From: Numidum massiliense
GTDB taxonomy: Bacteria; Bacillota; Bacilli; Thermoactinomycetales; Novibacillaceae
Length of the DNA stretch: 64,000 nucleotides
Direction of reading: 5' to 3'
NCBI RefSeq assembly: GCF_001375555.1
Contig: NZ_CTDZ01000009.1
Location: 1,295,758 to 1,359,757 of the forward strand
Each line of letters begins with the position of its first letter. Position 1 is the stretch's first letter. The position numbers and the translations under genes were made by a program. This document shows, one piece after another, positions 18,849 to 34,689 of this stretch. The notes beneath the pieces are model-generated. The model was not told the origin of the DNA, ran no database searches, and saw only the letters and a list, made by a program, of their open reading frames with translations.

Positions 18849-18851
18849 CAT

Positions 18852-18890: not shown

Positions 18891-18915
18891 CCATAAGAAA
18901 AAGGTGGTCTTAGTT

Positions 18916-20148
18916 ATGTTAAGTGCACGTACGATTGAGATCGTGAAAGCGACAGCACCAGTTTTAGAAGAACGCGGTAAGGAGATTACGACCTGCTTTT
19001 ACAAGTTAATGTTCGCGAATCATCCGGAATTGCTAAATATTTTTAACCATACAAACCAAAAACTTGGTCGACAACAGACAGCACTTGCTAACGCTGTGTT
19101 TGCAGCGGCGGCCAACATCGACCAGCTAGAAGCGATCCTGCCGGTAGTTAAACAAGTCGGACATAAGCACCGCAGCCTTGGCGTGCTTCCAGAGCATTAC
19201 CCGATAGTTGGAAAACATTTACTGTTGGCGATGGAAGAAGTATTAGGCGGGGCGGCGTCAGACGAAGTGATCGCCGCGTGGACGGAGGCGTACGACGTCA
19301 TTGCGGGGGCGTTTATCGAGGTGGAGCGCGACATGTACCGTCAAGCAGCTGAGCAAAGTGGCGGTTGGGCCGACTTCAGACTGTTTGTCGTCGAGAAAAA
19401 GGTTCCAGAAAGCGACGTCATTACCTCCTTCTATTTAAAACCGAAAGATGGCAAAGCGATCGCACACTACGAGCCAGGCCAATACATTAGCGTAAAGTTA
19501 AACATCGAAGGCGAGAAGTATACGCACATTCGTCAATACAGCCTCTCCGCCGCACCGGGACACGACTATTACCGTATAAGCGTCAAACGGGAAGACGGGG
19601 GCGATGTCGCCGACGGGGTTGTCTCTAACTATTTACACGAACAGGTGCAAGAAGGTGACGAACTACTTCTCAGTGCACCTGCAGGCGACTTTGTCCTCGA
19701 CCTCGAAAGTGAACGTCCACTTGTCCTCTTAAGCGGTGGGGTGGGATTGACGCCGCTCGTCAGTATGTTGCATACAGTCGTGGCACGACAACCTGAGCGT
19801 CCGGTCACATTCGTCCATGCCGCGTTAAACGGAGACGTGCACGCCTTGCACGAGGAAGTATCCCAGCTTGCAGCAGCGCACGACAACGTCAGCTACTACG
19901 TCTGTTACGAAAAGCCGACGGCATCTGACCGGGAAGCACAAAATTACGACAAAGAAGGGTTCGTCGATCTCCCGTGGCTACAGTCGATTATACGTGATAA
20001 CGAAGCAGACTTTTACTTTTGTGGACCGGTGCCGTTTATGCAGGCGATGAACAGTGCGCTCAAAGCGTGGGGTGTGCCCGAAGAACGCCGCCGCTTTGAA
20101 TTTTTCGGCCCAGCGGACGACTTGGAAAAAGAACGTGTAACGGCTTAA
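18916..20148 (+). CDS. hmp: Flavohaemoprotein, nitric oxide dioxygenase
   Basis: The 410-residue protein converts nitric oxide to nitrate with O2 and NAD(P)H, protecting against nitrosative stress. The globin domain (1-140) has the distal Tyr29 (TCFYKLMF) and proximal His85 in GHKHRS. The FAD domain carries RQYSLS, and the NAD domain has LLSGGVGLTPLVSML and FYFCGPVPFM. Length matches Bacillus Hmp (about 400). ATG 18916 is preferred because AAAAGGTGG precedes it; an ATG at 18883 has no ribosome binding site. The gene is monocistronic between two terminators. Confidence 0.96.
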   Translation: MLSARTIEIVKATAPVLEERGKEITTCFYKLMFANHPELLNIFNHTNQKLGRQQTALANAVFAAAANIDQLEAILPVVKQVGHKHRSLGVLPEHYPIVGKHLLLAMEEVLGGAASDEVIAAWTEAYDVIAGAFIEVERDMYRQAAEQSGGWADFRLFVVEKKVPESDVITSFYLKPKDGKAIAHYEPGQYISVKLNIEGEKYTHIRQYSLSAAPGHDYYRISVKREDGGDVADGVVSNYLHEQVQEGDELLLSAPAGDFVLDLESERPLVLLSGGVGLTPLVSMLHTVVARQPERPVTFVHAALNGDVHALHEEVSQLAAAHDNVSYYVCYEKPTASDREAQNYDKEGFVDLPWLQSIIRDNEADFYFCGPVPFMQAMNSALKAWGVPEERRRFEFFGPADDLEKERVTA

Positions 20149-20189
20149 AAGTTTGAAAAAGTATAACTTATGGCGTAAAAAAAGCACAG

Positions 20190-20226
20190 GCTGTCGCACT
20201 ATTTAGCGGCAGCTTGTTATTATTTT
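20190..20226 (+). terminator. Probable terminator after hmp
   Basis: GCTGTCGC (20190-20197) pairs with GCGGCAGC (20206-20213) with one wobble, followed by a T-rich tail. Confidence 0.65.
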
Positions 20227-20411
20227 CTGGCTCAGATATTTTCCACGGGTACATCACGGGAACATATCGGGGGAAGCGACGTATACGTTTGTCGTCAAGG
20301 TGAAGTGAATAGGGTCTTGTACTTAAAAGAGGTAAAGGTAAGACGATCCGATTTGTCAAGTCTGTTAAAGTCGCCGATCAGTTGATATGATGAAGGTGAG
20401 GTGGATGCAAC

Positions 20412-21128
20412 ATGAACCGTGATCACTTTCGCGAACTGACGATAACGACCCTACAGTCCGGCACTGTGAATATCCCGCATGGCTTGTTAAAGTTTTATAA
20501 AAAACTGCAGTTGTCCGACGTAGAAGCAATGCTACTCATTCACATCTTTTCTTTTCAAGCGAACGAAGGAAAAAGCTTTCCTACTATACACGAGTTACAA
20601 GAGCGTATGACTGTTCCCGAACACGAGTTAGTCCAGTCTTTGCAACAACTCGTTAGCAAACGTTACATAGGGATCGTCAATGACACCGACGCACAAGGGC
20701 TGCGCACAGAGCGGTACGACTTACAACCGCTGTATGAAAAATTAGCGGATTGTTATACCGCAGAAGGGAGTAAACAGCTCGCAGAGGCGCAAGAAGCGCG
20801 CGAAACGGGAATATTGACGACATTCGAGGCGGAGTTTGGCCGCCCCTTATCCCCAATGGAATGTGAGACGTTAGTTAAATGGTTAGACGAAGACGGGCTG
20901 CCCGACGAGTTGATTTTGGCTGCTTTAAAAGAAGCGGTCTTTGCTGGAAAATTAAACTTTCGTTACATTGACCGCATTTTGCTAGAGTGGAAGCGGAACC
21001 GCGTGCACACCGTCGAACAGGCGCAACAGTACGCCCGCAATTTCCGCAAAAAAGGGGCGATCTACCAAGGCGTTACGCCGCGGCGAGAAACGGACGATTT
21101 TCCGTTTTACAATTGGGTGAAATCATAA
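20412..21128 (+). CDS. dnaD: DnaD replication-initiation protein
   Basis: The 238-residue protein is a primosome component that helps load the replicative helicase in Firmicutes. It has an N-terminal winged-helix domain (about 1-100, with LSDVEAMLLIHIFSF and FPTIHELQERM) and a C-terminal DDBH2 domain containing FRYIDRILLEWKRN, the conserved DNA-binding signature. ATG 20412 follows GGTGAGGTGG. In Bacillus dnaD is usually followed by nth; here it is followed by a spore-glycan gene, so synteny is broken. Confidence 0.92.
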   Translation: MNRDHFRELTITTLQSGTVNIPHGLLKFYKKLQLSDVEAMLLIHIFSFQANEGKSFPTIHELQERMTVPEHELVQSLQQLVSKRYIGIVNDTDAQGLRTERYDLQPLYEKLADCYTAEGSKQLAEAQEARETGILTTFEAEFGRPLSPMECETLVKWLDEDGLPDELILAALKEAVFAGKLNFRYIDRILLEWKRNRVHTVEQAQQYARNFRKKGAIYQGVTPRRETDDFPFYNWVKS

Positions 21129-21188
21129 AAACTACCTCTCCTGAGGCGATAATAGCCAGCTGTACCCGTGACCAAACTTAAATCAGGC

Positions 21189-21196
21189 CATACAAT
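21189..21196 (+). promoter_or_regulatory. Sigma-E-like -10 element for the YheC/D-GT4 fusion gene
   Basis: CATACAAT matches the sigma-E -10 consensus exactly and lies 73 bases before the start; no good -35 is seen. Early mother-cell expression is a weak inference. Confidence 0.3.
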
Positions 21197-21268
21197 TATA
21201 TGAGAGTACCTAGCGTAGTAACCTCTCTGGTCTAGTATCTAACTCACGGGTCATTCAGGAGTGGTTCT

Positions 21269-23875
21269 ATGAAGCAAAATGTCGGCATTTTACTTAGTGC
21301 AACGAACTTAAAGGCGTGTTTAGCGGGCAAAAAAACGTACGAAGTTCTCGCACTGTATGAAAAATACGCACAGGAACACGCGATGCACCCCGTCTTTTTC
21401 TCCTTGTACGATATAGATTTTGATCGTTTGCTCGTGAACGTCGCCTCGCGCCGCGGCTACCATTACGTCCGCCACACCGTGCCGCTCCCGTCAGTCATAC
21501 ACAACCGCACCCGTTTAAGCCCGCGGTATGACGGGCTACTCAAGCGGCTGCTCGCCGTCCCACAAACCGACGTATTTAACGGTAGCAATTACTTTAACAA
21601 GTGGCACGTCTATCGCACGCTATGCACCAGTCGGGAATTGTGTCCGCACCTGCCGCAAACGTCTCGTCTGACTCCCGAAAACGTCGAACGGATGCTGAAG
21701 GAATATGCGGCAGTTTATGTGAAGCCGTTCGCCAAAAGTTTAGGGCAAGGGATCGTTAAATGTATGCTGCTTAACGATGAGAACGTGCAACTCAGTTGGC
21801 AAAAAAGCGGTGCCATTCACGAGCGAGTCCTCCCGCAAGAAGACGTCCTCGCGCTTTTACAAAAAAAGTGTGGCAGCCGCTACGTCATACAACGCGCAGT
21901 CCCGCTCATTCAGCTTGCGGAGCGGCCGGTCGATTTTCGCGTGTCCGTACAAAAAGGGGTTGACGGCAAATGGGGCTTATCAGGTATAGTCGCCCGGCGC
22001 GGCATCGCGCAAGCGATCGTGACGAATGTCGCCGCCGGCGGCACGTGTTGTCGTGCACTTCCGGTACTCGAACAGCTTTTCCCGAAGCGGGCGGTGGGAA
22101 TTTATGAACAAATGGGGCAGCTCGGCATCCGCATCGCGACCCACTTAGCGCAAGGTGATCGGCGCTGTGCCGATCTCGGGTTGGATCTCGCTGTCGACGA
22201 GAAAGGACACATTTGGTTTCTCGAAGTGAACGGGCGCGATTTGCGCATTACGTTCCGGCACGCCGCGGAGTGGGAGATGTGGCATAACACGTTTCGCCGT
22301 CCACTGGCGTACGCGTCGTTTTTATTGCAGCAGCAGCTGCAAACCCGGGCAGGCGCCGCGCGGGCAGCGAGCAGCAAATCCACGGTTATAGGCGAGTTGA
22401 GCGGCGGTGATGGGCCATGCACGAGTGGCCAGGCCGCAGCGGCAAGCGACGAGCAACGCATGAGCGACGAGTGGCAGACGAGTAAAGAGCAACGTAACGG
22501 TGACGAAAAGCGCATCAGTGTAGAGCGACGTACGAGTGACGAAAAGCACACCGACGAAGAGCGATGTACAGGTGATAAGAGGCGCTCCAATGTAGAGCGA
22601 CGTATCGGGGGCGAACGACGTGCCCGTGATGTCGGTGAGGAGATGGCGGTCACTATTTTAACTCCCGGTGCCTTTCCTGTCCCTGCGGGCCGCGGGGGAT
22701 CGGTGGAGACTGTCGCCACCCGGCTAGCCGAACAACTATTTGCGCGCGGCATCCATGTACAAACGGTTGGAACGTCCGATGTTCCTGGGCACGAAGGCGG
22801 TGCCGCACACGAGGACGACTCTGCGCACGAGGACGGTACCGCGAACGGGTCTCCGATCGGCTTAATCCGTGTGCCCCGGAAAGCGAACTATTTGCTGCAC
22901 GCCATTGGCCAAATGCGCCGTTTTCCGACATCGATTGTGCAAGTGGAAAATAGGCCGAAATACGTTCCCGCGTTACGGCGAGCGTTTCCTCACGCCCGCA
23001 TCATTCTTTCGCTGCACTCACTGACGTATTGCCGTCCGGCGGTGCTTTCGCCACGCCAGCTACAGCGCATTTTTGCCGCCTGTGATCGCGTCGTTGCTAA
23101 CAGCCGCTTTTTACAACGAGAACTGCAAAAATTAGCACCCCGCTACGAACGAATCGTCACCCACATCCATTTGGGGGTCGCGCAGGACACGTTCAGACCC
23201 ATCGACGAGACGCAGACCGAGCGGCAAGCCGAACGGCGACGTTTGCGGAAGACGCTTTCGCTCGCGAACGAACCGACAGTCCTGTTCGTCGGGCGCCTCA
23301 TCCCGCAAAAAGGTGTCCACCGTCTCATCGCCGCCATGGAACGCGTTCTTGTGCAAGTGCCCAACGTCATGTTAGTCGTCGTCGGCGGGAGCTTTTACGG
23401 TAGAAATACAGTAACGCCTTACGTGCACAAGCTAAAGCAGATGGCCGAGAAGCTAAACGGACGCATTCGCTGGGTGCCGTTCGTCTCCGCAGAGGACATT
23501 CATCACTATTATACGGTCGCCGACGTCGTCGTGACACCGTCGCTCGGCAGTGAAGCGTTCGGCCTTGTGAACGTCGAAGCGATGGCCAGCGGTTTACCGG
23601 TCATCACTTACGACCGCGGGGGCATTAGCGAAGTCGTCGTACACGGAGAGTCTGGTTATGTACTCCCCGCCAGGTCGTCGGTCGGCCAGTTGGCGGAGCG
23701 GATCGCGGCACTGCTAACCGATGGCACGTTGCGGAAACGGCTCGGGATGGCAGGGCGTCAGCGCACCCTAGACATGTTTACTTGGGAACGTGTCGCTGCC
23801 GATTACGAACAATTGTACCGAGATGTCCTCCAGCACGCGGCCGATCGGAAGTGTGCCTCCGCTAGTATTAGTTAA
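21269..23875 (+). CDS. Fusion protein: YheC/YheD ATP-grasp domain plus GT4 glycosyltransferase
   Basis: At 868 residues this is about the sum of two families. Residues 1-360 look like YheC/YheD spore-coat-associated ATP-grasp proteins (GSNYFNKWHVY, VYVKPFAKSLGQGI, VDFRVSVQK, DLGLDLAVDEKGHIWFLEVN). A low-complexity linker (about 375-455) of degenerate Ser-Asp-Glu-Arg units follows. The C-terminus (about 456-868) is a CotSA-like GT4 glycosyltransferase with PAGRGGSVE, VLFVGRLIPQKGVHRLI and the donor-binding SLGSEAFGLVNVEAMASGLP. ATG 21269 follows AGGAGTGG. It could ligate an amino acid or peptide and add a sugar to the same coat polymer. The frame is intact throughout, so fusion rather than a missed stop is likely. 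Confidence 0.85.
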   Translation: MKQNVGILLSATNLKACLAGKKTYEVLALYEKYAQEHAMHPVFFSLYDIDFDRLLVNVASRRGYHYVRHTVPLPSVIHNRTRLSPRYDGLLKRLLAVPQTDVFNGSNYFNKWHVYRTLCTSRELCPHLPQTSRLTPENVERMLKEYAAVYVKPFAKSLGQGIVKCMLLNDENVQLSWQKSGAIHERVLPQEDVLALLQKKCGSRYVIQRAVPLIQLAERPVDFRVSVQKGVDGKWGLSGIVARRGIAQAIVTNVAAGGTCCRALPVLEQLFPKRAVGIYEQMGQLGIRIATHLAQGDRRCADLGLDLAVDEKGHIWFLEVNGRDLRITFRHAAEWEMWHNTFRRPLAYASFLLQQQLQTRAGAARAASSKSTVIGELSGGDGPCTSGQAAAASDEQRMSDEWQTSKEQRNGDEKRISVERRTSDEKHTDEERCTGDKRRSNVERRIGGERRARDVGEEMAVTILTPGAFPVPAGRGGSVETVATRLAEQLFARGIHVQTVGTSDVPGHEGGAAHEDDSAHEDGTANGSPIGLIRVPRKANYLLHAIGQMRRFPTSIVQVENRPKYVPALRRAFPHARIILSLHSLTYCRPAVLSPRQLQRIFAACDRVVANSRFLQRELQKLAPRYERIVTHIHLGVAQDTFRPIDETQTERQAERRRLRKTLSLANEPTVLFVGRLIPQKGVHRLIAAMERVLVQVPNVMLVVVGGSFYGRNTVTPYVHKLKQMAEKLNGRIRWVPFVSAEDIHHYYTVADVVVTPSLGSEAFGLVNVEAMASGLPVITYDRGGISEVVVHGESGYVLPARSSVGQLAERIAALLTDGTLRKRLGMAGRQRTLDMFTWERVAADYEQLYRDVLQHAADRKCASASIS

Positions 23876-23887
23876 AAAAATGAGATA

Positions 23888-23987
23888 ACTGCCTACAGGT
23901 AACTGGTGTTCACACACAATCTTTAAACGACACGTCTAAACGACACGTCGTCACGTTGTGAACACTTACCGGTAGGCAGTTTTTTTG
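23888..23987 (+). terminator. Long hairpin terminator with internal direct repeats
   Basis: ACTGCCTAC (23888-23896) pairs with GTAGGCAGT (23972-23980), and inner arms GTGTTCAC/GTGAACAC extend the stem. Eight T residues follow. The apical part contains AAACGACACGTC twice in tandem. Confidence 0.85.
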
Positions 23988-24001
23988 TGTGCAAAAAAGG
24001 C

Positions 24002-24033
24002 AAAAAAATAAAAGCTGTTAGCGGTCAACAGCT
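24002..24033 (-). terminator. Rho-independent terminator of the first MurF-like gene
   Basis: On the minus strand AGCTGTT and AACAGCT (24033-24027 and 24019-24013) form a stem followed by TTTTATTTTTTT. It lies 10 bases after the stop. Confidence 0.8.
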
Positions 24034-24042
24034 CATTTGTAT

Positions 24043-25446
24043 TCATTCGTTACTTTTTAATGCTTTCACCAATTTTTCGAAGTGCCATTTTCGCGATGCT
24101 TTAAAATAAATGATACTGTTAGGCGGTGCGTTTTTTAAATAGTGGAGAGCACTGTCCCGCGTGGAAAAGTTGGCTACCTTCTGCTTGCTATAACCTTTAG
24201 CGATCGCGGTGCCAGCAATCTCCTTCGCTTTCGATCCGACGGTGACTAATTGGTCGACGGGATGGTTGGCGATGTATTCCCCGACGCGCTCGTGGGCGCG
24301 GTGGGAATAACTGCCGAGCTCCAACATATCGCCGAGGACGGCAATCGAGTAGCGCTTTTTCGCGACGGCGGTTAGCACTTGCAGACCGGCAATCATCGCT
24401 GTCGGATTAGCGTTCCACGCGTCATTAATGAGCAGAGTACCCTTTTTCCCTCGCACGAATTGTAGCCGCATGCTCGGCTGCTTATATTCGGCTAAACCGC
24501 GTTGAATAAGAGCCGGATCAATGCCCATCGTGTAACACATTCCGATGGCAGCAAGCGCATTGTACACGTTGTGCACGCCAAAGACCGGAATGCTGAAGGC
24601 GTACGGTTTGTTATTAAAACTGACTTGAAAGGTCATGCCGTTAGACGCGTAGCGCACATTCGATGCCACAATGTGCGCGGAACGGTGCATCCCAAAGCGG
24701 AAAACTCTTGCCTCGGTGCGTTCAATGCGTAATTGCCTAGAGCGCGCGTCGTCCGCGTTTAGGAACAGTACACCGCCGGCACGCATCCCGTCGACGAGTT
24801 CTTGTTTTGCGCGCAAAATGTTTTGTGATCCGCCGAGACTGCCGAAGTGGGCCTCGCCGACATTCGTCACCGCACCGAACTGGGGACGGACGACGCGGCA
24901 CTGGCGGGCAATGTTGTTCAACGATTTCATGCCCATTTCTAATAACAAGACGTTGTGACCCGGAGAAAGTCGGCACAAATATGTCGGTAAAAAACTAACT
25001 GTATTCAAGTTGTTCGTCGTCGCTACAATCCGGTATTTCTTTTTTAAAACCGAAGCGATCATCGCGATCGTCGTCGATTTTCCCGCACTGCCGGTAACGG
25101 CAGCGACCTTAACTGGGATCTGCCGAAAATTCCACAGTCCTAACCGCCAAAAAGCGAGATAGGGATCTTTCGTTTCTATAACCGCACACTCTTTCGGAAA
25201 GGCAAGGCGGCTATAATGACTCGGAACGACGACAGCGACGGGAACAGCCTGTCTTACAGCAGCCAGTTGTTGGTCGACTGCCGTTTTTTTACCGAAGAAA
25301 TACACTTGCCGCCGGCTAATGTACTTCGGTTTGCCGTAATTGACGACAGATACGGTGCGATTTTCGTCACCGCGAATCATCTTGCCGCTTATGACGCGAC
25401 ACAGATGGCGGAGTGATATCGATTTCAGGAGAAACGCCCCCCTCAC
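24043..25446 (-). CDS. MurF-like Mur ligase family protein, copy 1
   Basis: The 467-residue protein belongs to the ATP-dependent Mur ligases, which join an amino acid or dipeptide to a UDP-linked or similar acid. The P-loop reads VTGSAGKSTTIAMI (normally GSxGKTTT). Other family motifs are NNLNT, LEMGM, TNVGEAH, LNADD, VHNVYNALAAI, LINDAWNANPTAM and AVLGDMLELG, all closest to MurF. It lies outside any cell-wall cluster, in a spore-glycan region, and a second copy lies 4 kb away. A spore-specific substrate is therefore more likely than peptidoglycan precursor synthesis. GTG 25446 is the assigned start; a CTG at 25428 behind GAGGGGGG is an alternative. Confidence 0.82.
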   Translation of the reverse strand: MRGAFLLKSISLRHLCRVISGKMIRGDENRTVSVVNYGKPKYISRRQVYFFGKKTAVDQQLAAVRQAVPVAVVVPSHYSRLAFPKECAVIETKDPYLAFWRLGLWNFRQIPVKVAAVTGSAGKSTTIAMIASVLKKKYRIVATTNNLNTVSFLPTYLCRLSPGHNVLLLEMGMKSLNNIARQCRVVRPQFGAVTNVGEAHFGSLGGSQNILRAKQELVDGMRAGGVLFLNADDARSRQLRIERTEARVFRFGMHRSAHIVASNVRYASNGMTFQVSFNNKPYAFSIPVFGVHNVYNALAAIGMCYTMGIDPALIQRGLAEYKQPSMRLQFVRGKKGTLLINDAWNANPTAMIAGLQVLTAVAKKRYSIAVLGDMLELGSYSHRAHERVGEYIANHPVDQLVTVGSKAKEIAGTAIAKGYSKQKVANFSTRDSALHYLKNAPPNSIIYFKASRKWHFEKLVKALKSNE

Positions 25447-25479
25447 ACGCTTTGTGGCGTGAACGTTTACTACTCAACT

Positions 25480-25507
25480 TATAATATGGTTTTTTTGGAA
25501 AGGCAGT
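25480..25507 (-). promoter_or_regulatory. Sigma-K-like promoter of the first MurF-like gene
   Basis: On the minus strand AC (25507-25506) is followed by 17 bases and CATATTATA (25488-25480), a full -10 match. Confidence 0.45.
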
Positions 25508-25592
25508 GTTAGGTCCTACGCCCATCTTCGCGCAGCGCATGGGGTCACGTGCGGAAATTAAGCCGTACAAAACGCGCGCAGCCATCCACCCG

Positions 25593-25601
25593 CATACGAT
25601 A
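25593..25601 (+). promoter_or_regulatory. Sigma-K-like -10 element for the spsI-like gene
   Basis: CATACGATA is a full -10 match 30 bases before the start. The nearest AC upstream is 19 bases away, slightly too far. Confidence 0.3.
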
Positions 25602-25630
25602 ATAGCGATCTTGACGAGGGGGATACAGTG

Positions 25631-26365
25631 ATGAAAGGGGTCATTTTGGCGGGTGGGACCGGTTCGCGGCTTTACCCGCTGACAAAAGTAACGAATAAGC
25701 ACTTGCTCCCGGTAGGTAAGTACCCGATGATTTATCACCCGATTGCAAAGCTCGTCGCCGCGGACATTCGCGACATTATGATTATTACGGGCACCCGGCA
25801 CATCGGTGACGTCGTCCGCTTACTCGGCAGTGGGCAGGCGTTTTCGGCTCAGTTTACGTATCGCGTTCAGGACAAGCCGCAAGGCATTGCTCAAGCGCTG
25901 AGTATGGCCCGGACGTTTGTCGGTGGAGAGCGGTCGGTCGTGTTGTTGGGGGACAACGTGTTTGCAGACGATTTGCGACCTTACGTCGACAAGTTTCGCA
26001 CCCAAGCGCGCGGCGCGAAGTTGTTGCTTAAAAAAGTGGATCACCCCGAGCGGTTCGGAGTGGCAGAGCTCGCACAAGGGCGGGTCGTTTCGATTGAGGA
26101 AAAACCGTCCCAACCGAAAAGTTCTTACTGTGTGACTGGTATTTACATGTTCGATGCGCAAGTGTTCGAGATGTTCGACACACTCGAGCCTTCAGCGCGC
26201 GGAGAATACGAAGTGACAGACATCAATAATTTATACATTAAGCAAAACGCGTTAACGTACGATATTTTGTCTGGCTGGTGGTCGGATGCTGGGACCCACG
26301 AGTCGCTCTTGGCTGCGAATGCATACGCGGCAAAGACGGAATTACCGTTTCCTGCTGCCGAGTGA
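25631..26365 (+). CDS. spsI: Glucose-1-phosphate thymidylyltransferase, SpsI-like
   Basis: This 244-residue enzyme should make dTDP-glucose from glucose 1-phosphate and dTTP, the first step to dTDP-rhamnose. The nucleotidyltransferase signature GGTGSRLYPLT, the metal site GDNVF and the sugar-binding EEKPSQPKSSYCVTGIYMFD are intact. Its length matches Bacillus SpsI (about 246) rather than the 290-residue RmlA. ATG 25631 lies eight bases after GAGGGGG; a GTG at 25628 is possible. The RmlD/SpsK gene follows, as in the Bacillus sps cluster, but RmlB and RmlC (SpsJ, SpsL) genes are not here. Confidence 0.9.
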   Translation: MKGVILAGGTGSRLYPLTKVTNKHLLPVGKYPMIYHPIAKLVAADIRDIMIITGTRHIGDVVRLLGSGQAFSAQFTYRVQDKPQGIAQALSMARTFVGGERSVVLLGDNVFADDLRPYVDKFRTQARGAKLLLKKVDHPERFGVAELAQGRVVSIEEKPSQPKSSYCVTGIYMFDAQVFEMFDTLEPSARGEYEVTDINNLYIKQNALTYDILSGWWSDAGTHESLLAANAYAAKTELPFPAAE

Positions 26366-26402
26366 CTAGCGTTATCTATAAATTAACAGTGGGAGGGTGA
26401 CC

Positions 26403-27269
26403 GTGAAAATATTAGTAAACGGCGCCGGTGGGCAGCTCGGACGGGAAATCGCTAAGAGGCTAAGTTCGGTGCATTGTGTGCGCCCTTTTACGCGAGCAAT
26501 GTGGGATGTAACCGACGAGGCGGCGACACGGCAGATTGTCGAACGGGAAGCGCCGGACGTCGTCGTGCACTGCGCCGCCTATACGGCAGTCGATCAGTGT
26601 GAGAAAGATGCGGCGACGGCGTTTGCCGTCAACGCATACGGCACGCGCAACGTTGCGGCAGTGTGTGGCGAATGCGGCATTGCACTCGCCTACATTAGTA
26701 CCGACTACGTCTTCGACGGAGAAAAAGAGGCGGGTTATGACGAGTGGGACACGACGAGGCCGCTTAACGTCTACGGACGCTCAAAAGAAGCGGGGGAGCA
26801 GTTCGTGCGCCAGTTATGTCGCTCGCATTTTATTTTGCGCACCGCCTGGCTGTACGGCGTTCACGGTAACAACTTCGTAAAAACGATTGTCGCCAAGGCG
26901 CGGAAAGGCGGGGATATCGCCGTCGTCAATGACCAGACCGGTTCCCCGACATATGCCGGACACCTTGCGGCCAAAATCGGTGAGCTCGTAGCTACACGCT
27001 ATTACGGTACGTACCATCTCGCGAATCGTGGCTCGTGTACGTGGTATGAGTTCGCACAAAGTATCGTCGAGCGGTTACGACTGAAGGCTCGCATCTTACC
27101 AATTTCGTCACAGGAACTGGGGCGCAGCGCACGCCGTCCGCGTTTTTCTACGCTGCAGTCGCTAAGTCTAGCAGCGCAATGCATCGCTTCGTTGCCGCAC
27201 TGGCGGGAAGGGATGAGCGCCTTTTTGCAAGAATGGGAAGGAAAAAGCGGGGAGTGTCATATAAAATAA
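26403..27269 (+). CDS. spsK: dTDP-4-dehydrorhamnose reductase, RmlD/SpsK-like
   Basis: This 288-residue short-chain dehydrogenase should catalyse the last step of dTDP-L-rhamnose synthesis. It shows the NAD(P)-binding NGAGGQLGREI, DVTDE, HCAAYTAVDQCE, ISTDYVFDG, and the YGRSKEAGE active site with Tyr and Lys. GTG 26403 is chosen because GGGAGG is six bases upstream; the in-frame GTG at 26397 would touch it. It is close behind the spsI-like gene (37 bases) and probably in the same transcript. Confidence 0.92.
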   Translation: MKILVNGAGGQLGREIAKRLSSVHCVRPFTRAMWDVTDEAATRQIVEREAPDVVVHCAAYTAVDQCEKDAATAFAVNAYGTRNVAAVCGECGIALAYISTDYVFDGEKEAGYDEWDTTRPLNVYGRSKEAGEQFVRQLCRSHFILRTAWLYGVHGNNFVKTIVAKARKGGDIAVVNDQTGSPTYAGHLAAKIGELVATRYYGTYHLANRGSCTWYEFAQSIVERLRLKARILPISSQELGRSARRPRFSTLQSLSLAAQCIASLPHWREGMSAFLQEWEGKSGECHIK

Positions 27270-27300
27270 CATAAACTTCTTTGGATTTAGGTGAAAAGCC

Positions 27301-28491
27301 GTGCACATTATTCGCGTTGTCTCTTCTAGGGACAAACAAAACTCATCGGTTCTTACACCGAAGGAAATACAACGAATACAAGCGGTTACTCGAACGAGAC
27401 AATCGCCGAAAACGCACCTTTCTGGGGAAACCGTCGTTGCAGATGAACAAACGGCAACTACTGGCACTGCACGCGTATGGGAGAACTTGCGTACAGCATT
27501 GCAGAAAAAAGTAGCTACGCGGGCTTGCGACGGGCCTGTCGTCCTGCAGTGGGAACGTATGTTGCCACAGACATGTTACAGCGAAAAAAATGTCGTAGCC
27601 TGCGCTCACAACGTGTACCACGTGTACGTCATGTGCCACTTGCGCGACTTACCGCGCGATTTTCCGCAGCGAACGCCTGCTTCACACGTCGTCGTCCCGA
27701 ATTATTTTTCACGCGAAACGTTACGTCGACGCGGTTTACGACGGGTAACGACCATTTTTCCGACCGTTAGCCGCCAGGTGGCACGGGTAAATCGTAGCGA
27801 GGTGCTGTCCGAGTCGCGAGAGACTACCCGGGAGACAGGCGAACAGGGAGGGAAGGGACTCTGCGGCTCGCTCACGATCTTGTTGCCCTTAGTCGCGACG
27901 ACGAACCGCTTGTGGAACGGTGTAGGCGAGCTGTCCCGTTACCGTCATAAATTTCATTGGTTACTCGCCACTGGCGCGCATGGGTCGACTTGGCACGATT
28001 CGTCTCCAGTAGCGGGCGCTTCGCATCTGTTCGCAGCAAAGGCACAAATACGTTCCGAGGCTAGTCGCGTGCCAGCTGCACTGCGCAAAAACGTGCGACG
28101 GACGGTGTGGCGGCTGCGGCAAGCGGGGCATACGGTTACATACGTTGCGGCGTCTGACGTCGCGGCTTGGAATCGTGCGGACGTCGTCATAACCGACCAA
28201 GTGCCCGACGTTTCGCTCAACCGGTTACACCTCCATGCGATGGCGTTACGCATACCGATCGTAACGACCATGTGTGGCGATCACCCGGAATTGGTCAAAC
28301 ATATGCATTCGGGCTGCTTGCTATCTTGCGAACGTTTACAATCGGACTTAAGTGCCTATTTACGTCTGCTGGCCAAAGAGCGGCAGATGTTGCATCAGTT
28401 CGGGTGCAACGCCTTTGCCTTATACGATACGTATTACCGTGACACGCATATTGCGGCACAGTGGCTCGCCTTGTACGAATCACTCACATAA
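27301..28491 (+). CDS. Divergent GT4-like glycosyltransferase
   Basis: The 396-residue protein is weakly recognisable. Its C-terminal third has the GT4 donor-site pattern: LHAMALRIPIVTTMCGDHPELV, given here as LHAMALRIP and GDHPELV, then a tail of helices ending LALYESLT. The usual Glu-x7-Glu site is altered, so activity is uncertain. The N-terminal half is Arg- and Thr-rich and has no clear acceptor-domain motif. GTG 27301 follows AGGTGAAAA. It sits 31 bases after spsK and before a GT2 gene, so a role in the same rhamnose-containing polymer is plausible. Confidence 0.6.
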   Translation: MHIIRVVSSRDKQNSSVLTPKEIQRIQAVTRTRQSPKTHLSGETVVADEQTATTGTARVWENLRTALQKKVATRACDGPVVLQWERMLPQTCYSEKNVVACAHNVYHVYVMCHLRDLPRDFPQRTPASHVVVPNYFSRETLRRRGLRRVTTIFPTVSRQVARVNRSEVLSESRETTRETGEQGGKGLCGSLTILLPLVATTNRLWNGVGELSRYRHKFHWLLATGAHGSTWHDSSPVAGASHLFAAKAQIRSEASRVPAALRKNVRRTVWRLRQAGHTVTYVAASDVAAWNRADVVITDQVPDVSLNRLHLHAMALRIPIVTTMCGDHPELVKHMHSGCLLSCERLQSDLSAYLRLLAKERQMLHQFGCNAFALYDTYYRDTHIAAQWLALYESLT

Positions 28492-28612
28492 AATCCCGAG
28501 TTACTCATTGCCAAGTTTTTCGGCATAAATTTCTATTACTTAGTTTGGCATAATGTTTTATGTCATTTAGTAGTGGGAGTGTAGAAATAAATGAGGCGAA
28601 GGAGGGCGCACC

Positions 28613-29353
28613 ATGGTCAGAACGCTCGTCAGTATCGTTATTTTGACACACAATGAATGGAAATACACGAGCTTGTGCTTGCGCAGCTTGCAGCAACACA
28701 CCGATGCCGCACACGAAGTGATCGTCGTAGACAACGGCTCCACCGATGAGTCGCTTGCCCATTTACGGCAGTTACGAGATCGCGGGCGGATTCGCCTACT
28801 AGAAAACGACGTTAACCGGGGATTTGCCGCAGGGGTAAACTGCGGCATGGACGCAGCTAAAGGGACCTACATCGCGCTGTTAAATAACGATACCGTTCCT
28901 TCGCACCGATGGCTGGACAATCAGTTGCAACTGTTGCAGCAGCGGGAAGGCGCCGGGATCGTCGGTCCGCTGTCTAACCGCGTGCTCAAACGGCAAAAGT
29001 TGCGCACAGATCTGACGTCGCTAAGTGAAATTCACCGTTTTAGTCAGCAGCACAACCGTCCCGATCCGGCCAAGTGGCGCAAAACGCCATTACTGTCCGG
29101 GTTTTGCATGGTGTTGACGCAAGAGCTCGTCCGGAGCATCGGTTTGTTCGACGAGCGTTTCGGTGCAGGGACGTATGAGGACAACGATTACTGTCGGCGT
29201 GCGCTGGGAGCGGGTTTTACATGTTGGATCGCGGGGGACACGTATGTGCACCACTTCGGCAACAAAAGTTTTAGCCGACGCGGTCGGGCCGAATTCCAAA
29301 AAATACTGCGCCAAAACCGACAGTATTATTCGTATAAGTGGAGGAGGAAGTGA
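28613..29353 (+). CDS. GT2-family glycosyltransferase (rhamnosyltransferase-like)
   Basis: The 246-residue protein is a classical GT-A enzyme: VSIVILTHNEW at the N-terminus, VVDNGSTDES, NRGFAAGVN, the metal-binding ALLNNDTVP, and FDERFGAGTYEDNDYCRRA with the catalytic-base region. This subfamily often includes rhamnosyltransferases, consistent with spsI and spsK upstream. ATG 28613 follows GAAGGAGGG. It converges with the second MurF-like gene, only 13 bases apart, with no obvious terminator between them. Confidence 0.93.
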   Translation: MVRTLVSIVILTHNEWKYTSLCLRSLQQHTDAAHEVIVVDNGSTDESLAHLRQLRDRGRIRLLENDVNRGFAAGVNCGMDAAKGTYIALLNNDTVPSHRWLDNQLQLLQQREGAGIVGPLSNRVLKRQKLRTDLTSLSEIHRFSQQHNRPDPAKWRKTPLLSGFCMVLTQELVRSIGLFDERFGAGTYEDNDYCRRALGAGFTCWIAGDTYVHHFGNKSFSRRGRAEFQKILRQNRQYYSYKWRRK

Positions 29354-29366
29354 GTCGGTTCAGGTT

Positions 29367-30737
29367 TTAAACGCGTAGCGCAGTGACGAGTTGATTTAAA
29401 CCGGTTGCGTGGGAAGCTTTGAAATAGACGACCGTCCGCTGAGGCATGTGCTGCCTAAGAAAGTTGTGTGCTTGTCTGACCGTTTCGAACGAATAAATGC
29501 GCGCAGCTGGCATGCCTTTTTTTTGTGCGCCGACGGCGACTTGGCGCGCCTGTTTGCCGATCGTGACGAGTGTGCCGATCTTTTTTTTCGCGATAAATTT
29601 GCCGACGCGACGGTGGCCTTGTTGACTGAGCTGTCCGAGCACGAGCATGTCGCCGATGACCGCCACCGTCGGTCGCCCGTTGGCCACGTGGTTTAAAACG
29701 CGCAACCCTTGAATCGCAGCCGTCGGATTCGCGTTGTACGTATCGTTAATGAGCAAAGATTGCTTAATACCGCGCATTTGTTGCAAGCGACGGTACGGTC
29801 TCTCGTAGTGGCGCAGTCCATGTTGAATCAGATTGTCGGGAACGCCGAGCTGTCTCGCCGCTGCGATGACGGCTAAGGCGTTGTACACGTTGTGCCGCCC
29901 AAAACTCGGAATGAAAAACGGTGTTCGCCCGACGGTAAACGCCATGCCACTCTGGACGTAGCGCACGTCGGTCGCGCGAACGTGTGCTGGCTTGCGGATG
30001 CCGTAGCGAATAATCGTGCCGCGAAACGACTGCGTCGACAGTTTTTGTGTGCCGCGATCGTCGGCGTTTAACAGGAGCGTTCCTCCCGCAACGACTCCGT
30101 CGACCATTTCTTGCTTCGCTTTCACTACCCCGGCGAGTGAACTGCCTAAATTGCCGGCGTGCGCTTCCCCGACATTCGTAATGATCCCCATCTGTGGGCG
30201 TACGACACGACACTGTGCGCGAATATTGCCGAAACTGCCCATTCCCATTTCCAGCACGGCCATTCGATGGCTCGGCGCGAGGCGCAGCAAGTGGTGAGGC
30301 ACATAGGCGAATACATTCATGTTACTGTACGATTTCAAGGTGCGGTATTTACGAATGAGTACGGAGGCGAGCATTTCTTTCGTCGTCGTTTTGCCTGCGC
30401 TGCCAGTAATTCCGATGAAGAAGGCGGATGACCTGGCGCGCTGCCATTTTACTAATCGCCAGAACGCCTCATACGGGTTGCCGACGGCGATGACGGCACA
30501 GCGCTGCGGCATGCGTGCCACGAACGCACGAGTGGTGACGACGACCGTACAGCGCTCGTTATGCAGTGCCGTCAGCTGCTCTTGCACGCGTCCGGACAGT
30601 TGCATGAAAAAAGCGATCCCCGGGCGCAGCTCTTTCACACGCCCGTATAGAGCGCCGTTAATCGGTGCTACAGCGTTTCCGCGCAGCAGTCTTCCTCCCA
30701 CGATGTTGGCTAACGAATGCACGTTTAACGGAAACAT
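29367..30737 (-). CDS. MurF-like Mur ligase family protein, copy 2
   Basis: The 456-residue protein has the Mur ligase motifs ITGSAGKTTTKEML (P-loop), YSNMNVFAY, LEMGMGSFGNIRAQC, TNVGEAHAGNLG, LNADD, GRHNVYNALAVI, LINDTYNANPTAAI and VIGDMLVLG. It is clearly a paralogue of the 24043-25446 gene, though well diverged. Here the P-loop is the canonical GKTTT. ATG 30737 is preferred because GGTGGGG is eight bases upstream; the GTG at 30746 has no site. It is divergent from the CgeB-like gene at 30942. An unusual amino-acid or peptide decoration of a spore polymer is one possible role. Confidence 0.83.
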   Translation of the reverse strand: MFPLNVHSLANIVGGRLLRGNAVAPINGALYGRVKELRPGIAFFMQLSGRVQEQLTALHNERCTVVVTTRAFVARMPQRCAVIAVGNPYEAFWRLVKWQRARSSAFFIGITGSAGKTTTKEMLASVLIRKYRTLKSYSNMNVFAYVPHHLLRLAPSHRMAVLEMGMGSFGNIRAQCRVVRPQMGIITNVGEAHAGNLGSSLAGVVKAKQEMVDGVVAGGTLLLNADDRGTQKLSTQSFRGTIIRYGIRKPAHVRATDVRYVQSGMAFTVGRTPFFIPSFGRHNVYNALAVIAAARQLGVPDNLIQHGLRHYERPYRRLQQMRGIKQSLLINDTYNANPTAAIQGLRVLNHVANGRPTVAVIGDMLVLGQLSQQGHRRVGKFIAKKKIGTLVTIGKQARQVAVGAQKKGMPAARIYSFETVRQAHNFLRQHMPQRTVVYFKASHATGLNQLVTALRV

Positions 30738-30941
30738 GTGCTTCACCCCACCAAAAAATGGTCATGTATCAACATATGTCGGCCGGTTTTGGCTGGTGTT
30801 AGATGCATATCTCGATTGGAGCGAGATCCTTCTTAAAGCAAACGTATTTGGGAAGGAGCAAATAGACGGTCGTCCCGGCGCAAAAAAGAGTTCCTGCGAA
30901 TACATAGTAATAAGCCTGTAAAGGCGAGGAGGGGAGACGGT

Positions 30942-32012
30942 TTGCGAGGTATTGTCGTTCCATCGGGCATTAAACGTCCGTTTGCCCCGATCGACCGAGC
31001 AGTGTTGCGCGCGTTCCAAAAGTTACAAGTGGAAGTGACGCCACTCGCAGCGGAAGAGTCCTTTCGGGAGCGACTCCCGTCGTTAGTTGCTGACACAAAT
31101 CCGGATTTCATCCTCGTGTTAATGGGCTGGCGTCTCGGCGCGGACAATTGGCAGCAGCTTAAACGCGTGCCGCGCATTCCGAAAATCGCTTGGATGACAG
31201 ACGATCCGTATTACAGCGACTGGTCGCGCACCGTCGGGAAATACGTTGACGTCGTCTTTACGAATGAGTCGGCCGCGGTTCCCGTCTACCGTGCACACGG
31301 CTGTCAGTGCGTGCACCATCTGCCTCTCGGCGTCGATCCAACCGATTTTTTTCCTCGCCAAACCGTTCCGGCGCGGTACCACAGTGACGTTTTAGTGTTA
31401 GGGACCGCTTTTAACAACCGCCGCCGCTGGGTACGACAGTTACTGCCCTACCTGACTCGTACAAAGCTCTGCCTCGTCGGCCCGGGATGGGACCGTGCCG
31501 ACGTGTTCCTTAAGTCGCCTGCGCGGGGGTGCGTGCGAAAACGCGTCGTTGTGCGCCCGCACTGGGTGTCGGTTGCCGAAGCGAATAACTACTACAACGG
31601 CGCCAAAATCGTCCTCAACTTAAACCGCTCGCCGCGGGACGAGTATTTAAAGCTTAACCGGGCCGGGGTGGCAGCGAATACTCCGAACAACCGGACGTTC
31701 GAAGTCGCCGCTTGTGCCGCTTTCCAACTCGTGCAATACCGACCCGATTTATCTTCTCTTTATCCAGCGCAAGATCGTAGTGGAAAGTCACGTATACTTT
31801 CGTTTCGTTCGGTCGGTGACGCGATTCGCTTAATGACGTACTACTTGCCGCGAATTAAACGCCGAGTGGCAATCGCTACGGACGTTTACCGGGAAACGTT
31901 ACAGGCGCATCAGTACGTGCATCGCATCGAGAAACTTTGTGCCGTTTTAAAAAAATTTCACCGCAGCGATCAGCATGATGTAACAGTAACCGGTGAAACA
32001 ACGCCTTTATAA
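30942..32012 (+). CDS. CgeB-like glycosyltransferase, paralogue 1 of 5
   Basis: The 356-residue protein belongs to the CgeB/GT-B group (spore maturation protein CgeB, Glyco_trans_1_2). Landmarks are AWMTDDPYYSDW, FTNESAAVPVYR, HHLPLGVDP, VLVLGTAFNNRR, the donor-site ANNYYNGAKIVLNLNRSPRD and NTPNNRTFEVAACAAFQL. In Bacillus CgeB is made late in the mother cell and affects spore-surface polysaccharide. TTG 30942 follows GGAGGGGAG. It is the most divergent of the five copies and is followed by APS kinase. Confidence 0.85.
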   Translation: MRGIVVPSGIKRPFAPIDRAVLRAFQKLQVEVTPLAAEESFRERLPSLVADTNPDFILVLMGWRLGADNWQQLKRVPRIPKIAWMTDDPYYSDWSRTVGKYVDVVFTNESAAVPVYRAHGCQCVHHLPLGVDPTDFFPRQTVPARYHSDVLVLGTAFNNRRRWVRQLLPYLTRTKLCLVGPGWDRADVFLKSPARGCVRKRVVVRPHWVSVAEANNYYNGAKIVLNLNRSPRDEYLKLNRAGVAANTPNNRTFEVAACAAFQLVQYRPDLSSLYPAQDRSGKSRILSFRSVGDAIRLMTYYLPRIKRRVAIATDVYRETLQAHQYVHRIEKLCAVLKKFHRSDQHDVTVTGETTPL

Positions 32013-32155
32013 CCGACATGGGGTAACAACTATAAAAAAAACGTTTTTTTGGGTGAAAAGGTGGGCGAGGGACGTTCCTGCCGCCTCCTGTCCACCGTAA
32101 ATTGTTTCTAGATGACGTTTAAATATTTTGAACGCATATAAAGGAGACAACAGCT

Positions 32156-32698
32156 GTGAAACAATGCGGAGTTACTTTGTGGTTGACCGGTTTGTCCGGG
32201 GCAGGTAAAACGACGATCACTCAACAGGTTGAAGTCATTCTTCGAGAACGCGGCGTTGCTGTGGAACGGTTAGACGGCGATGTCGTCAGGCAGTATTTGA
32301 CGAAAGATCTCGGGTTTAGCCGCCAGGACCGTTTGACGAATGTCGAACGTTCAGCGTTTGTCGCAGATTTGCTCTGTAAACACGACATTATCGTTCTCGC
32401 CGCCTTCATTTCACCGTACCGAGAAATGCGGGACAGAGCACGGGCAATCATTCGCAGTTTTCGCGAAGTATACGTCAGTTGTCCGTTAGAGACGTGCGTC
32501 GACCGCGACGTTAAAGGACTGTACAAAAAGGCGTTAAACGGGGAAATCTCCCAGTTTACGGGGATTAGCGATCCGTATGAGCCACCGTTAAACCCCGATC
32601 TCGCGCTTCAGACCGACCGTGAGACGGCCGTGGAGAGTGCCTTAAACGTCGTGCGCTATTTGGAGGAAAACGGCTTTATTCCGAGGGAAGACGCCTAG
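32156..32698 (+). CDS. cysC: Adenylylsulfate (APS) kinase
   Basis: This 180-residue enzyme phosphorylates APS with ATP to give PAPS, the sulfate donor for sulfotransferases. All motifs are canonical: P-loop GLSGAGKTT (12-20), LDGD (39-42), DLGFSRQDR, the APS-binding FISPYREMRDRAR (84-96) and KGLYKKA (120-126). GTG 32156 follows AAAGGAGA. The gene sits between a CgeB-like glycosyltransferase and a phosphodiesterase-fold enzyme, not in a cysteine-assimilation operon. That points to PAPS supply for sulfotransfer. It complements the ATP sulfurylase gene at 58854. Confidence 0.95.
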   Translation: MKQCGVTLWLTGLSGAGKTTITQQVEVILRERGVAVERLDGDVVRQYLTKDLGFSRQDRLTNVERSAFVADLLCKHDIIVLAAFISPYREMRDRARAIIRSFREVYVSCPLETCVDRDVKGLYKKALNGEISQFTGISDPYEPPLNPDLALQTDRETAVESALNVVRYLEENGFIPREDA

Positions 32699-32762
32699 AA
32701 AAAAACATGAGGGAACGTTGTAGCTACAACTTGATCGAATGACATTGAAATAGGTGGTACGT

Positions 32763-34205
32763 ATGCGAAAAAAAGTAGTCGTTATCGGCTTAGACTGCGC
32801 CGCCCCCGACCTCGTGTTTAACGAGTGGACAAAGAACCTGCCCCATTTACGGCGCCTGATGGCGCACGGTGTTTACGGGAGGCTACGTAGTACGAATCCG
32901 CCAATAACTGTTCCGGCGTGGGCGTCGATGGTAACGAGTCAAGACCCCGGGCAACTCGGGATTTACGGCTTCCGCAACCGCGGCAGTTACGATTACGCGA
33001 ATGAGACGATCGTCGACAGTCGTTCATTGAAGGCACCGGCAATTTGGGACATCCTCGGGCGGCGTGGCTATAAGTCGATCGTCCTCGGCGTGCCACCGTC
33101 ATTTCCACCGAAATCGCTCAACGGCTGTGCGGTTTCTTGTTTTTTGACACCAGGTACGCACACGACGTACACGTATCCTAAAGAGCTTGCGGCCGAAGTC
33201 GTCCGTGTCGTCGGCGACTACGCATTCGACGTCGAAAACTTCCGTACCTCTGATACGTCCCATATACTAAAGCAAATTTACGCAATGACCGAAAAGCGCT
33301 TTCGGCTCGCGTCACATCTCGTGCGTACGAAGCCGTGGGACTTTTTTATGATGGTCGAGATGGGGACGGATCGTATTCATCATGCCTTTTGGCACTATAT
33401 GGATGAAAAACACGTCCTTCACGTCCCACACTCGTCTTACCGCCATGCGATCTACGACTACTACAAATTTGTCGACGGACAAATCGGCCAGTTGCTGTCA
33501 CACTTCCCGCCGGACACGCTCGTGCTCGTCGTTTCCGATCACGGGGCAAAGCGGATGGACGGGGGGTTCTGCTTGAATGAGTGGCTCATACGCGAACGGT
33601 TGCTCGTCTTGAAACAGCCTGTGCAAACAGTGACCCCGCTTACGGCGGACATGGTCGATTGGCGCAAGACGCGCGCCTGGGGACAAGGTGGCTATTACGG
33701 ACGCTTAAACTTGAACGTGAAAGGACGAGAACCGCACGGGATTATACCGTCAAACCGCTACGAAGTTGTACGCAACACGCTTATTGAGAAATTGCGCGGC
33801 CTAGAGACGGAAAACGGGAAACCGCTACCGACAAAAGTGTTTAAGCCGAGTAAAATATATCGGCGCACGAGAAATATTCCACCCGATTTACTCGTTTACT
33901 TCGGCGATCTGTATTGGCGCGCAATCGGCAGTGTCGGGCATAACACGTTGGACGTTTACAAAAACGACATCGGGCCAGACGGGGCTAATCACGATTATGA
34001 GGGGATCGTCATCGGTACTTATTTAAAGCGACTGCAGAGCCAGTCTCAGCAACGATCGCAGCGACCCACACGCACAAACAGGAGTAGCCTCCTGCAAAAG
34101 GCCAGCATTTACGACATCGCGCCAACTGTGTTGCGTCAGTTCGGCATCGCGGCGACGCGAGCGATGCGCGGAAAAGTGCTGCCGCTTCTCGCAAATAGTG
34201 TGTAA
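32763..34205 (+). CDS. Alkaline-phosphatase-superfamily phosphodiesterase/nucleotide pyrophosphatase
   Basis: The 480-residue protein has the metal-binding N-terminus VIGLDCAAPDLV, the nucleophile region NPPITVPAWASMVTSQDPG (Thr as nucleophile), GIYGFRNR, and the C-terminal metal site VVSDHGAKRMDGGF. These define type I phosphodiesterases and related alkaline-phosphatase-fold hydrolases. There is no signal peptide, so it acts inside the mother cell or forespore. ATG 32763 follows AGGTGG. It is 64 bases after cysC and probably co-transcribed. The substrate is unknown; a nucleotide such as pAp or APS, or a polymer linkage, is possible. Confidence 0.85.
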   Translation: MRKKVVVIGLDCAAPDLVFNEWTKNLPHLRRLMAHGVYGRLRSTNPPITVPAWASMVTSQDPGQLGIYGFRNRGSYDYANETIVDSRSLKAPAIWDILGRRGYKSIVLGVPPSFPPKSLNGCAVSCFLTPGTHTTYTYPKELAAEVVRVVGDYAFDVENFRTSDTSHILKQIYAMTEKRFRLASHLVRTKPWDFFMMVEMGTDRIHHAFWHYMDEKHVLHVPHSSYRHAIYDYYKFVDGQIGQLLSHFPPDTLVLVVSDHGAKRMDGGFCLNEWLIRERLLVLKQPVQTVTPLTADMVDWRKTRAWGQGGYYGRLNLNVKGREPHGIIPSNRYEVVRNTLIEKLRGLETENGKPLPTKVFKPSKIYRRTRNIPPDLLVYFGDLYWRAIGSVGHNTLDVYKNDIGPDGANHDYEGIVIGTYLKRLQSQSQQRSQRPTRTNRSSLLQKASIYDIAPTVLRQFGIAATRAMRGKVLPLLANSV

Positions 34206-34231
34206 TCTGTACCACATTTAGCAGCCTCTAC

Positions 34232-34272
34232 TAAAAAAACCGTCGCCTAGGGAGGGTGCCTAGGCGACGGTT
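34232..34272 (-). terminator. Strong terminator, mainly for the YisL-like gene
   Basis: AACCGTCGCCTAGG (34238-34251) and its perfect complement (34259-34272) form a 14-bp stem with a 7-base loop. On the minus strand it is followed by seven T residues; on the plus strand the tail is weak. Confidence 0.9.
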
Positions 34273-34326
34273 GCTTGCGTATGCGTCCTGTAGCATACGG
34301 GTGAGTTTAATCGAACTCCGTTGAAT

Positions 34327-34689
34327 TTAAAACTGAATCACCTTAAAGCCGATTAATACGACGAGTACTAATACGATAATAAAGAGGAGCCACGGAACAC
34401 CCATTTTTGCCCCGGGTTGTCGTTTCACGCGTCCGAGCGTCGCTTCCATGATCGCGATGAGTACAACAGCTAACAGTCCTTTAATGACAAAGACGAAGGA
34501 GAAATTGTAACGGTATAACATAACCGCACCAGAAATTAGCATCACTAAGTATAAAAGGCGCAAAATCATAGACGTTACTTTGGCACCGGACTGGCTGTCT
34601 TTTTTGATCAACGCGTAAGAAACGATGAACATGATGACCATGAGCAGCCAGCCGCTTTTATGTAGGGTTAAAAACAAATCTCCAGACAT
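34327..34689 (-). CDS. yisL: YisL family (UPF0344, DUF1516) membrane protein
   Basis: The 120-residue protein has four hydrophobic helices (about residues 9-25, 40-60, 66-82 and 96-117) and matches the YisL pattern: KSGWLLMVIMFIVSYAL, SGAKVTSMILRLLYLVM, ISGAVMLYRY and KGLLAVVLIAIMEATLGR. Bacillus YisL has about 118 residues; its function is unknown. ATG 34689 has GGAGGAAAG upstream. It is a housekeeping-type gene embedded in the glycan region, with its own terminator. Confidence 0.88.
   Translation of the reverse strand: MSGDLFLTLHKSGWLLMVIMFIVSYALIKKDSQSGAKVTSMILRLLYLVMLISGAVMLYRYNFSFVFVIKGLLAVVLIAIMEATLGRVKRQPGAKMGVPWLLFIIVLVLVVLIGFKVIQF

Follow-up and report, generated by a model that had tools for sequence, protein, structure and literature searches.

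The 64,000-nucleotide stretch of the Numidum massiliense genome considered here (NCBI RefSeq assembly GCF_001375555.1, contig NZ_CTDZ01000009.1, positions 1,295,758 to 1,359,757 of the forward strand; hereafter the window) harbors two MurF-like open reading frames (ORFs), A and B, both on the minus strand, that enclose sugar-nucleotide and glycosyltransferase genes on the plus strand. The original prediction, made from the letters of this DNA, described such a pair of diverged paralogues around spsI/spsK/GT genes, and these labels are fair, as the enclosed genes encode a nucleotidyltransferase, an RmlD-type reductase, a protein that matches glycosyltransferases only weakly, and a GT2 enzyme. 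Its coordinates hold for A, and the start of B is corrected to 30746, from 30737. A and B share 42-43% identity and both score above the cut-off of the curated murF model (NCBIfam TIGR01143; 309.5 bits for A and 299.6 bits for B, cut-off 288.6). A comparison of window 18000-38000 with Rfam returned no match. The features of the locus, beginning with the two ligases, are as follows (window coordinates).

24043-25446, minus strand: MurF-like ligase A, 467 residues from a GTG start; Mur_ligase_M and Mur_ligase_C domains, MurF fold, canonical motifs missing from the N-domain
25069-25092, minus strand: P-loop of A, GSAGKSTT, at residues 119-126 (positions derived from the ORF)
25000-25011, minus strand: codons Asn146-Leu-Asn-Thr149 of A, uncut in the window, where orthologues are interrupted in 5 of 33 genomes (positions derived from the ORF)
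25480-25510, minus strand: sigma-K-like promoter of A, AC-N17-CATATTATA (pattern match)
29367-30746, minus strand: MurF-like ligase B, 459 residues from a GTG start; Mur_ligase_M and Mur_ligase_C domains, paralogue of A
21269-23875, plus strand: fusion of YheC/D ATP-grasp and GT4 glycosyltransferase, convergent with A (domain matches)
25628-26365, plus strand: sugar-nucleotidyltransferase of the RmlA/SpsI type, divergent from A (family-model matches)
26397-27269, plus strand: RmlD-type (SpsK-type) dTDP-4-dehydrorhamnose reductase (family-model matches)
27301-28491, plus strand: glycosyltransferase-like protein (weak match only)
28613-29353, plus strand: GT2 glycosyltransferase, convergent with B (domain match)
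30942-32012, plus strand: DUF3880 and Glyco_trans_1_2 protein, divergent from B (domain match), which we take to be CgeB-like

The YheC/D-GT4 fusion type found next to A recurs in L064, L086 and L088 (L and G numbers are our handles for loci and genomes). Several DUF3880/Glyco_trans_1_2, APS kinase, sulfotransferase-like and sulfatase-like ORFs, some of them scanned, make the window resemble a spore-coat glycan region.

The AlphaFold model of A (27-row alignment) has a mean predicted local distance difference test score of 94.1, and its best match in a structure comparison is MurF 4qf5, with a Z-score of 41.9 over 448 residues that include the N-domain; cyanophycin synthetase chains are the next matches (Z ≈28). 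The Gly-Lys of the P-loop and residues E170, H200, K214, N296, D342 and K449 are kept in all 28 full-length A sequences and in all 24 B sequences aligned, and we take these positions to form the ATP, magnesium and carbamate-lysine core. A thus has the MurF fold, from which we infer the same acyl-phosphate chemistry. The D[ST]R motif of the N-domain is present in 22 of 24 canonical rows (a set that includes L112, which the tree described below places with noncanonical sequences, and L110, which it places with canonical ones), in none of the 28 full-length A rows and in one of the 24 B rows, and the [FY]xGH motif follows the same pattern (19/24, 0/28 and 0/24, respectively). Both motifs are presumably part of UDP-N-acetylmuramic acid (UDP-MurNAc) recognition and, because they are lost, the UDP-MurNAc docking site does not look conserved in A and B. 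The NNHxG stretch that follows the P-loop in canonical MurF is altered in both clades. A P-loop Thr is found in all 24 canonical rows, compared with a Ser in 27 of the 28 full-length A rows and in 2 of the 24 B rows; the GKSTT variant originally pointed out in A is present and common to its clade. Relative to the MurF family, A and B therefore agree with the curated model and with the three-domain fold and core, and depart from it in the canonical N-domain motifs and in tree placement. In the suggested comparison of substrate-pocket residues, the canonical N-domain motifs are lost in A and in nearly all B rows, and the proposed role, attachment of amino acids or peptides to a spore polymer or to a muramic-acid-like sugar, is supported in part: the muramic-acid-like substrate is the less likely one, since D[ST]R and [FY]xGH are absent from every full-length A row.

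A maximum-likelihood tree of 86 sequences resolves an A clade of 33 rows (support 100/100) and a B clade of 24 rows (100/97), with canonical MurF apart (100/99); A and B are two clades outside canonical MurF. They are sisters in this tree (99/94); in a core-only tree with more distant relatives, canonical MurF is still separate (100/100), the sisterhood is weak (57/73) and L251 is joined to A. The 3.76-Mb genome of N. massiliense harbors eleven Mur_ligase_M matches, and its two canonical-type murF genes both show DTR and F[DN]GH motifs. One sits in a murE-murF-x-murD row (names assigned by gene order), and the other (C9, ≈930.6 kb; L104:6215-7858) clusters in the tree with a copy found in G036 and G039. 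A or B as the sole murF of the genome, which the original prediction had named as fatal to its proposal, is rejected, as two separate canonical-type copies are present. A is found in 33 of the 42 genomes of the order examined (Thermoactinomycetales, N. massiliense included) and B in 17 of the 42, with up to three copies in each. Among the matches listed in a search of genome contigs there is one close relative, L128 of Kroppenstedtia guangzhouensis, a member of Thermoactinomycetaceae, at 51% identity, the other 79 loci lying at 26-38%.

The A gene of the window is preceded by AC-N17-CATATTATA within a 31-base match, 64 to 34 bases upstream of its GTG, which bears out the sigma-K-like promoter originally assigned to this copy, and the link extends to both clades. 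In its unmodified form, the sigma-K pattern lies upstream of 13 of 23 B-clade genes (shuffled sequences: mean 0.5, maximum 3) and none of 22 canonical genes, fits 2 of 33 A-clade genes, and was not found upstream of B in the window. Open enumeration reveals a GAATANNATA-like motif upstream of 25 of the 33 A-clade genes, often with TGGGC further upstream, and a pattern widened to cover both motifs precedes 29/33 A genes (shuffles 2.3), 17/23 B genes and 0/22 canonical genes. Since this pattern was widened for A post hoc, with the sequences already seen, since upstream regions within a clade are related and shuffles therefore overstate significance, and since canonical murF is usually operon-internal, the promoter data support a sigma-K link for A and B and stop short of proof. 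An unmodified sigma-E -10 element precedes none of the 33 A genes and shows no enrichment. A box of the form RWWTRGGY, which we take to be a GerE-like consensus, occurs upstream of 19 of the 33 A genes (8.0 on average and at most 14 in shuffled sequences), a weak signal. Applied to all 42 genomes, a loosened promoter pattern is uninformative (138 sites versus 65 in a reversed control), and a stricter pattern applied to 4 of the 42 gives four sites versus none in the control, three before A genes and one before a YheC/D ORF, which are too few.

In 5 of the 33 genomes harboring A (G003, G024, G025, G029 and G040), the gene lies in two parts on the same strand. The interruption falls at the Asn-Leu-Asn-Thr codons in all five, and the two parts are in phase in all five. 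The inserts measure 45.3 kb (G003), 4.3 kb (G024), 16.5 kb (G025), 8.4 kb (G029) and 9.0 kb (G040), and each harbors a large serine recombinase (Resolvase and Recombinase domains) that ends beside the 3′ part of A on the same strand. These recombinases fall into two families, one comprising those of G024 and G029 (79% identical) and the other the remaining three (53-60%), with 34-37% identity between the families. The G040 insert, the one in which arms were examined, ends in 25-base inverted arms that are 92% complementary; the core common to the insert ends, read by eye, spans ≈5-8 bases and is imperfect in G024 and G029. Under uniform insertion, the probability of four more cuts within six codons of the first is 2.7e-8, or 2.1e-6 with G024 and G029 counted as one event; this clustering shows choice of site, not function. 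The G+C content of the inserts is close to that of the flanks in the four compared. None of the five A pairs contains a stop as aligned, and the upstream motif is retained before four of the five split genes. The N pieces of G024 and G029 are without stops and differ at a synonymous divergence (dS) of 1.28, with a ratio of nonsynonymous to synonymous divergence (dN/dS) of 0.07, and their recombinases at a dS of 1.18, values near saturation (dS of the C pieces is saturated); from the similar dS and low dN/dS, this is as expected if the insertion were about as old as the divergence of the two genomes and the ligase had been under selection since. If the insertion is old, G028, the intact sister of this pair, must have lost the element or have branched off earlier.

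The split relatives have the anatomy of the skin and spsM types of element, which are excised in the sporulating mother cell, and excision itself is predicted here. Intervening elements are named in sigK (skin), spsM (SP-beta), spoVFB (vfbin), spoVR (vrin), gerE (gin) and yabG (yin), in passages of PMC4191935, PMC5595907, PMC6957869 and PMC10747680, and the elements in A share with them a spore-type gene interrupted in its coding region, a serine recombinase inside and parts that are in phase. They differ in their target, a MurF-like ligase gene, and in that two distant recombinase families occupy the same codons; excision at A is predicted, and the elements were found in relatives and not in the window. 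No MurF-like gene is named as the target of an intervening element in the openly licensed literature searched, supplements excluded. That the split genes reflect ordinary prophage or island insertions into dispensable, decaying genes, with no programmed excision, strikes us as unlikely. A nonessential gene would tolerate an insertion, the 45-kb insert contains a terminase, recombinase relatives are located in phages, and no sigma-K-like site lies in the 250 bases upstream of any of the five recombinase genes (a sigma-E pattern finds one sigma-E-like -10 element among the five, in G029); decay, however, sits poorly with intact, in-phase pieces, with the low dN/dS and similar recombinase dS of G024 and G029, with the retained upstream motif, and with small inserts (4.3-9 kb) that retain the recombinase. 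No relatives turned up in viral contigs when one recombinase or the A alignment served as query.

Assembly error as a general cause of the splits is rejected, as those of G025 and G003 lie within contigs of 3.35 Mb and 2.15 Mb and a common site is occupied by different inserts. Insert cargo is very diverse (L048:5863-7218, L053:2586-6886, L052:4313-5536 and L102:7993-9699), with a terpene synthase and with glutathionylspermidine-synthase-like, DinB and cupin proteins; the 45-kb insert carries, besides its terminase, a colicin-like nuclease domain. In G002, the promoter and 5′ part of A lie in a 1022-base exact tandem duplication (L054:2569-4612), whose breakpoint falls in or just after the Asn-Leu-Asn-Thr codons and which could be recombinase-made, a chance event or an assembly effect. 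None of the 24 B rows is seen split in the manner of A; L059 is truncated at the end of its contig, and L074:5018-5689 (G008) is a fragment of 224 residues, 51% identical to B and situated between YheC/D-GT4-like ORFs, that is either a truncated B or another split.

MurF-like, YheC/D ATP-grasp and COOH-NH2 ligases all form carboxylate-amine bonds using ATP. Outside the order, relatives of ≈370-430 residues that lack an N-domain are found in many Bacilli, and the six longer relatives examined all combine YheC/D ATP-grasp and Mur ligase domains, three in each domain order. When the search was taken beyond the class, 11 of 398 genomes had a match at E 1e-120, N. massiliense among them, and nine of the ten other matched loci were fetched. 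In eight of these nine, YheC/D-like genes lie near the MurF-like gene, up to about four in a row, five of them confirmed by Pfam, and the same eight carry an ORF of 495-537 residues belonging to one cluster, which is a COOH-NH2 ligase in both members scanned by Pfam; the ninth, L292, has neither YheC/D nor an ORF of this cluster nearby. YheC/D turns up in all 42 genomes of the order, and the COOH-NH2 ligase in 13 of 14 genomes tested (the exception is G302). A functional link between MurF-like ligases and YheC/D is likely, given the fusions in opposite orders and the arrays; the association with YheC/D genes in other genomes that was expected at the outset holds, both as fusions and as neighbors. 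A PGA_cap gene, of the poly-gamma-glutamate capsule type, adjoins short MurF-like ligases without an N-domain in five of eight loci tested (L241, L244, L247, L253 and L098).

On a rival account, A and B attach an amino acid to a carboxyl of the spsI/spsK-type glycan itself, such as that of a uronic acid, by amidation and have no dealings with YheC/D. Sugar-nucleotide and glycosyltransferase genes do adjoin A and B here, 12 of 33 A loci have an sps-type gene in the flanks that were fetched, and ORFs that look by eye like UDP-glucose dehydrogenase are present in the window; we nonetheless consider this account doubtful, as the fusions and neighborhoods indicate YheC/D and as, in the nine loci outside the class, the sps-type genes of the window are unmatched at the BLAST limit used, whereas YheC/D is matched in eight.

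We favor, by a small measure over even chances, a reading in which A and B are ATP-dependent amide ligases that serve the spore envelope late in the mother cell and work with YheC/D, and in which excision of the element restores A in the split relatives; we infer the mother-cell timing, the excision and the cooperation. A and B would be MurF-fold carboxylate-amine ligases that departed from peptidoglycan synthesis and would act late in sporulation, in the mother cell, making amide or peptide bonds as a spore-envelope polymer is assembled. Their chemistry would be that of MurF or of the Mur domain of cyanophycin synthetase, in which ATP yields an acyl phosphate that is then attacked by an amine, and they would share a substrate or product with the YheC/D ATP-grasp ligases, acting together with these and, in other lineages, with a COOH-NH2 ligase. 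In the five split relatives, the large-serine-recombinase element would keep A in two parts, to be rejoined by excision only at spore formation. Several points weigh against this reading. Nine of the 42 genomes in the order lack A, neither A nor B is fused to YheC/D within it, and the A loci, for which unequal flanks were fetched, show an sps-type sugar gene in 12 of 33 and a dnaD or YheC/D-GT4 gene in 17 of 33. To these are added the rarity of the unmodified sigma-K pattern before A, the post hoc pattern and related upstream regions behind the promoter counts, the near-saturated dS values, the missing sigma-K-like site before the recombinase genes, and the reduction of the five split genes to four lineages, as G024 and G029 are sisters.

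A role for A and B as sporulation-stage MurF isozymes that still make UDP-MurNAc-pentapeptide and boost cortex supply is quite improbable: both pass the murF model and retain the core and the MurF fold, and passages of PMC10745906 treat canonical murF as a sigma-K-controlled cortex gene (yet with no clear regulation in the strains of that work) and cite a late rise of Mur proteins in B. subtilis sporulation, but the canonical N-domain motifs are gone, the NNHxG stretch is altered, the neighbors of A and B are glycan genes and not cortex genes, and relatives lack any N-domain or are fused to ATP-grasp.

Compared with known systems, the envelope ligases proposed here share with MurF (EC 6.3.2.10) the fold, in the A model, the P-loop, the catalytic residues and a TIGR01143 score above cut-off, and differ from it in the missing N-domain motifs, in forming their own clades, in a spore-type promoter and in coexisting with canonical copies. 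Cyanophycin synthetase CphA1, like the YheC/D-MurF fusions, joins ATP-grasp and Mur ligase in one chain, and its chains match the A model; in TIGR02068, however, A scores 55.5 bits and B 36.9 bits against a cut-off of 850, and the ATP-grasp of the fusions belongs to the YheC/D family. A and B are thus not members of the cyanophycin synthetase family, which is the nearest solved analogue of the ATP-grasp/Mur pairing. YheC/YheD ATP-grasp proteins of spore-formers are the partners in fusions and arrays, whereas A and B are themselves Mur ligases. The novelty appears to lie in the role taken on by a known ligase fold and in the gene targeted by a known kind of element. More tentatively, and as a possibility we would not call probable, spore-formers may harbor an unrecognised peptide-ligase pathway, independent of ribosomes and of nonribosomal peptide synthetases, in which MurF-like, YheC/D and COOH-NH2 ligases build oligo- or poly-amino-acid envelope material much as cyanophycin synthetase does, and which excision switches on in the mother cells of several thermoactinomycetes.

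Annotation models call these genes murF, though the canonical motifs tested in the N-domain are missing from A and both genes lie among spore-type genes. If the envelope reading is true, the widespread and little understood YheC/D spore proteins gain a chemistry and a partner, and one more spore gene joins the short list of those rebuilt by programmed DNA excision. The split strains would then offer a natural test, as a gene that needs its halves rejoined reveals when it is needed, and in them two distant recombinase families converge on a single set of codons.

Elsewhere in the window, five alike ORFs of the DUF3880/Glyco_trans_1_2 type lie at 30942-32012, 36453-37478 and 40241-43512 (the first scanned, the others assigned by eye), and the sulfotransferase-like, sulfatase-like and APS kinase ORFs that accompany this set possibly point to a sulfated spore glycan. 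The UDP-glucose dehydrogenase-like gene at 50094-51379, named by eye, consists of two overlapping ORFs in different frames, either a frameshift or a sequence error. Window 9153-13503 harbors five alike glycosyltransferase-like ORFs of 218-244 residues with a methyltransferase-like ORF among them, all named by eye.

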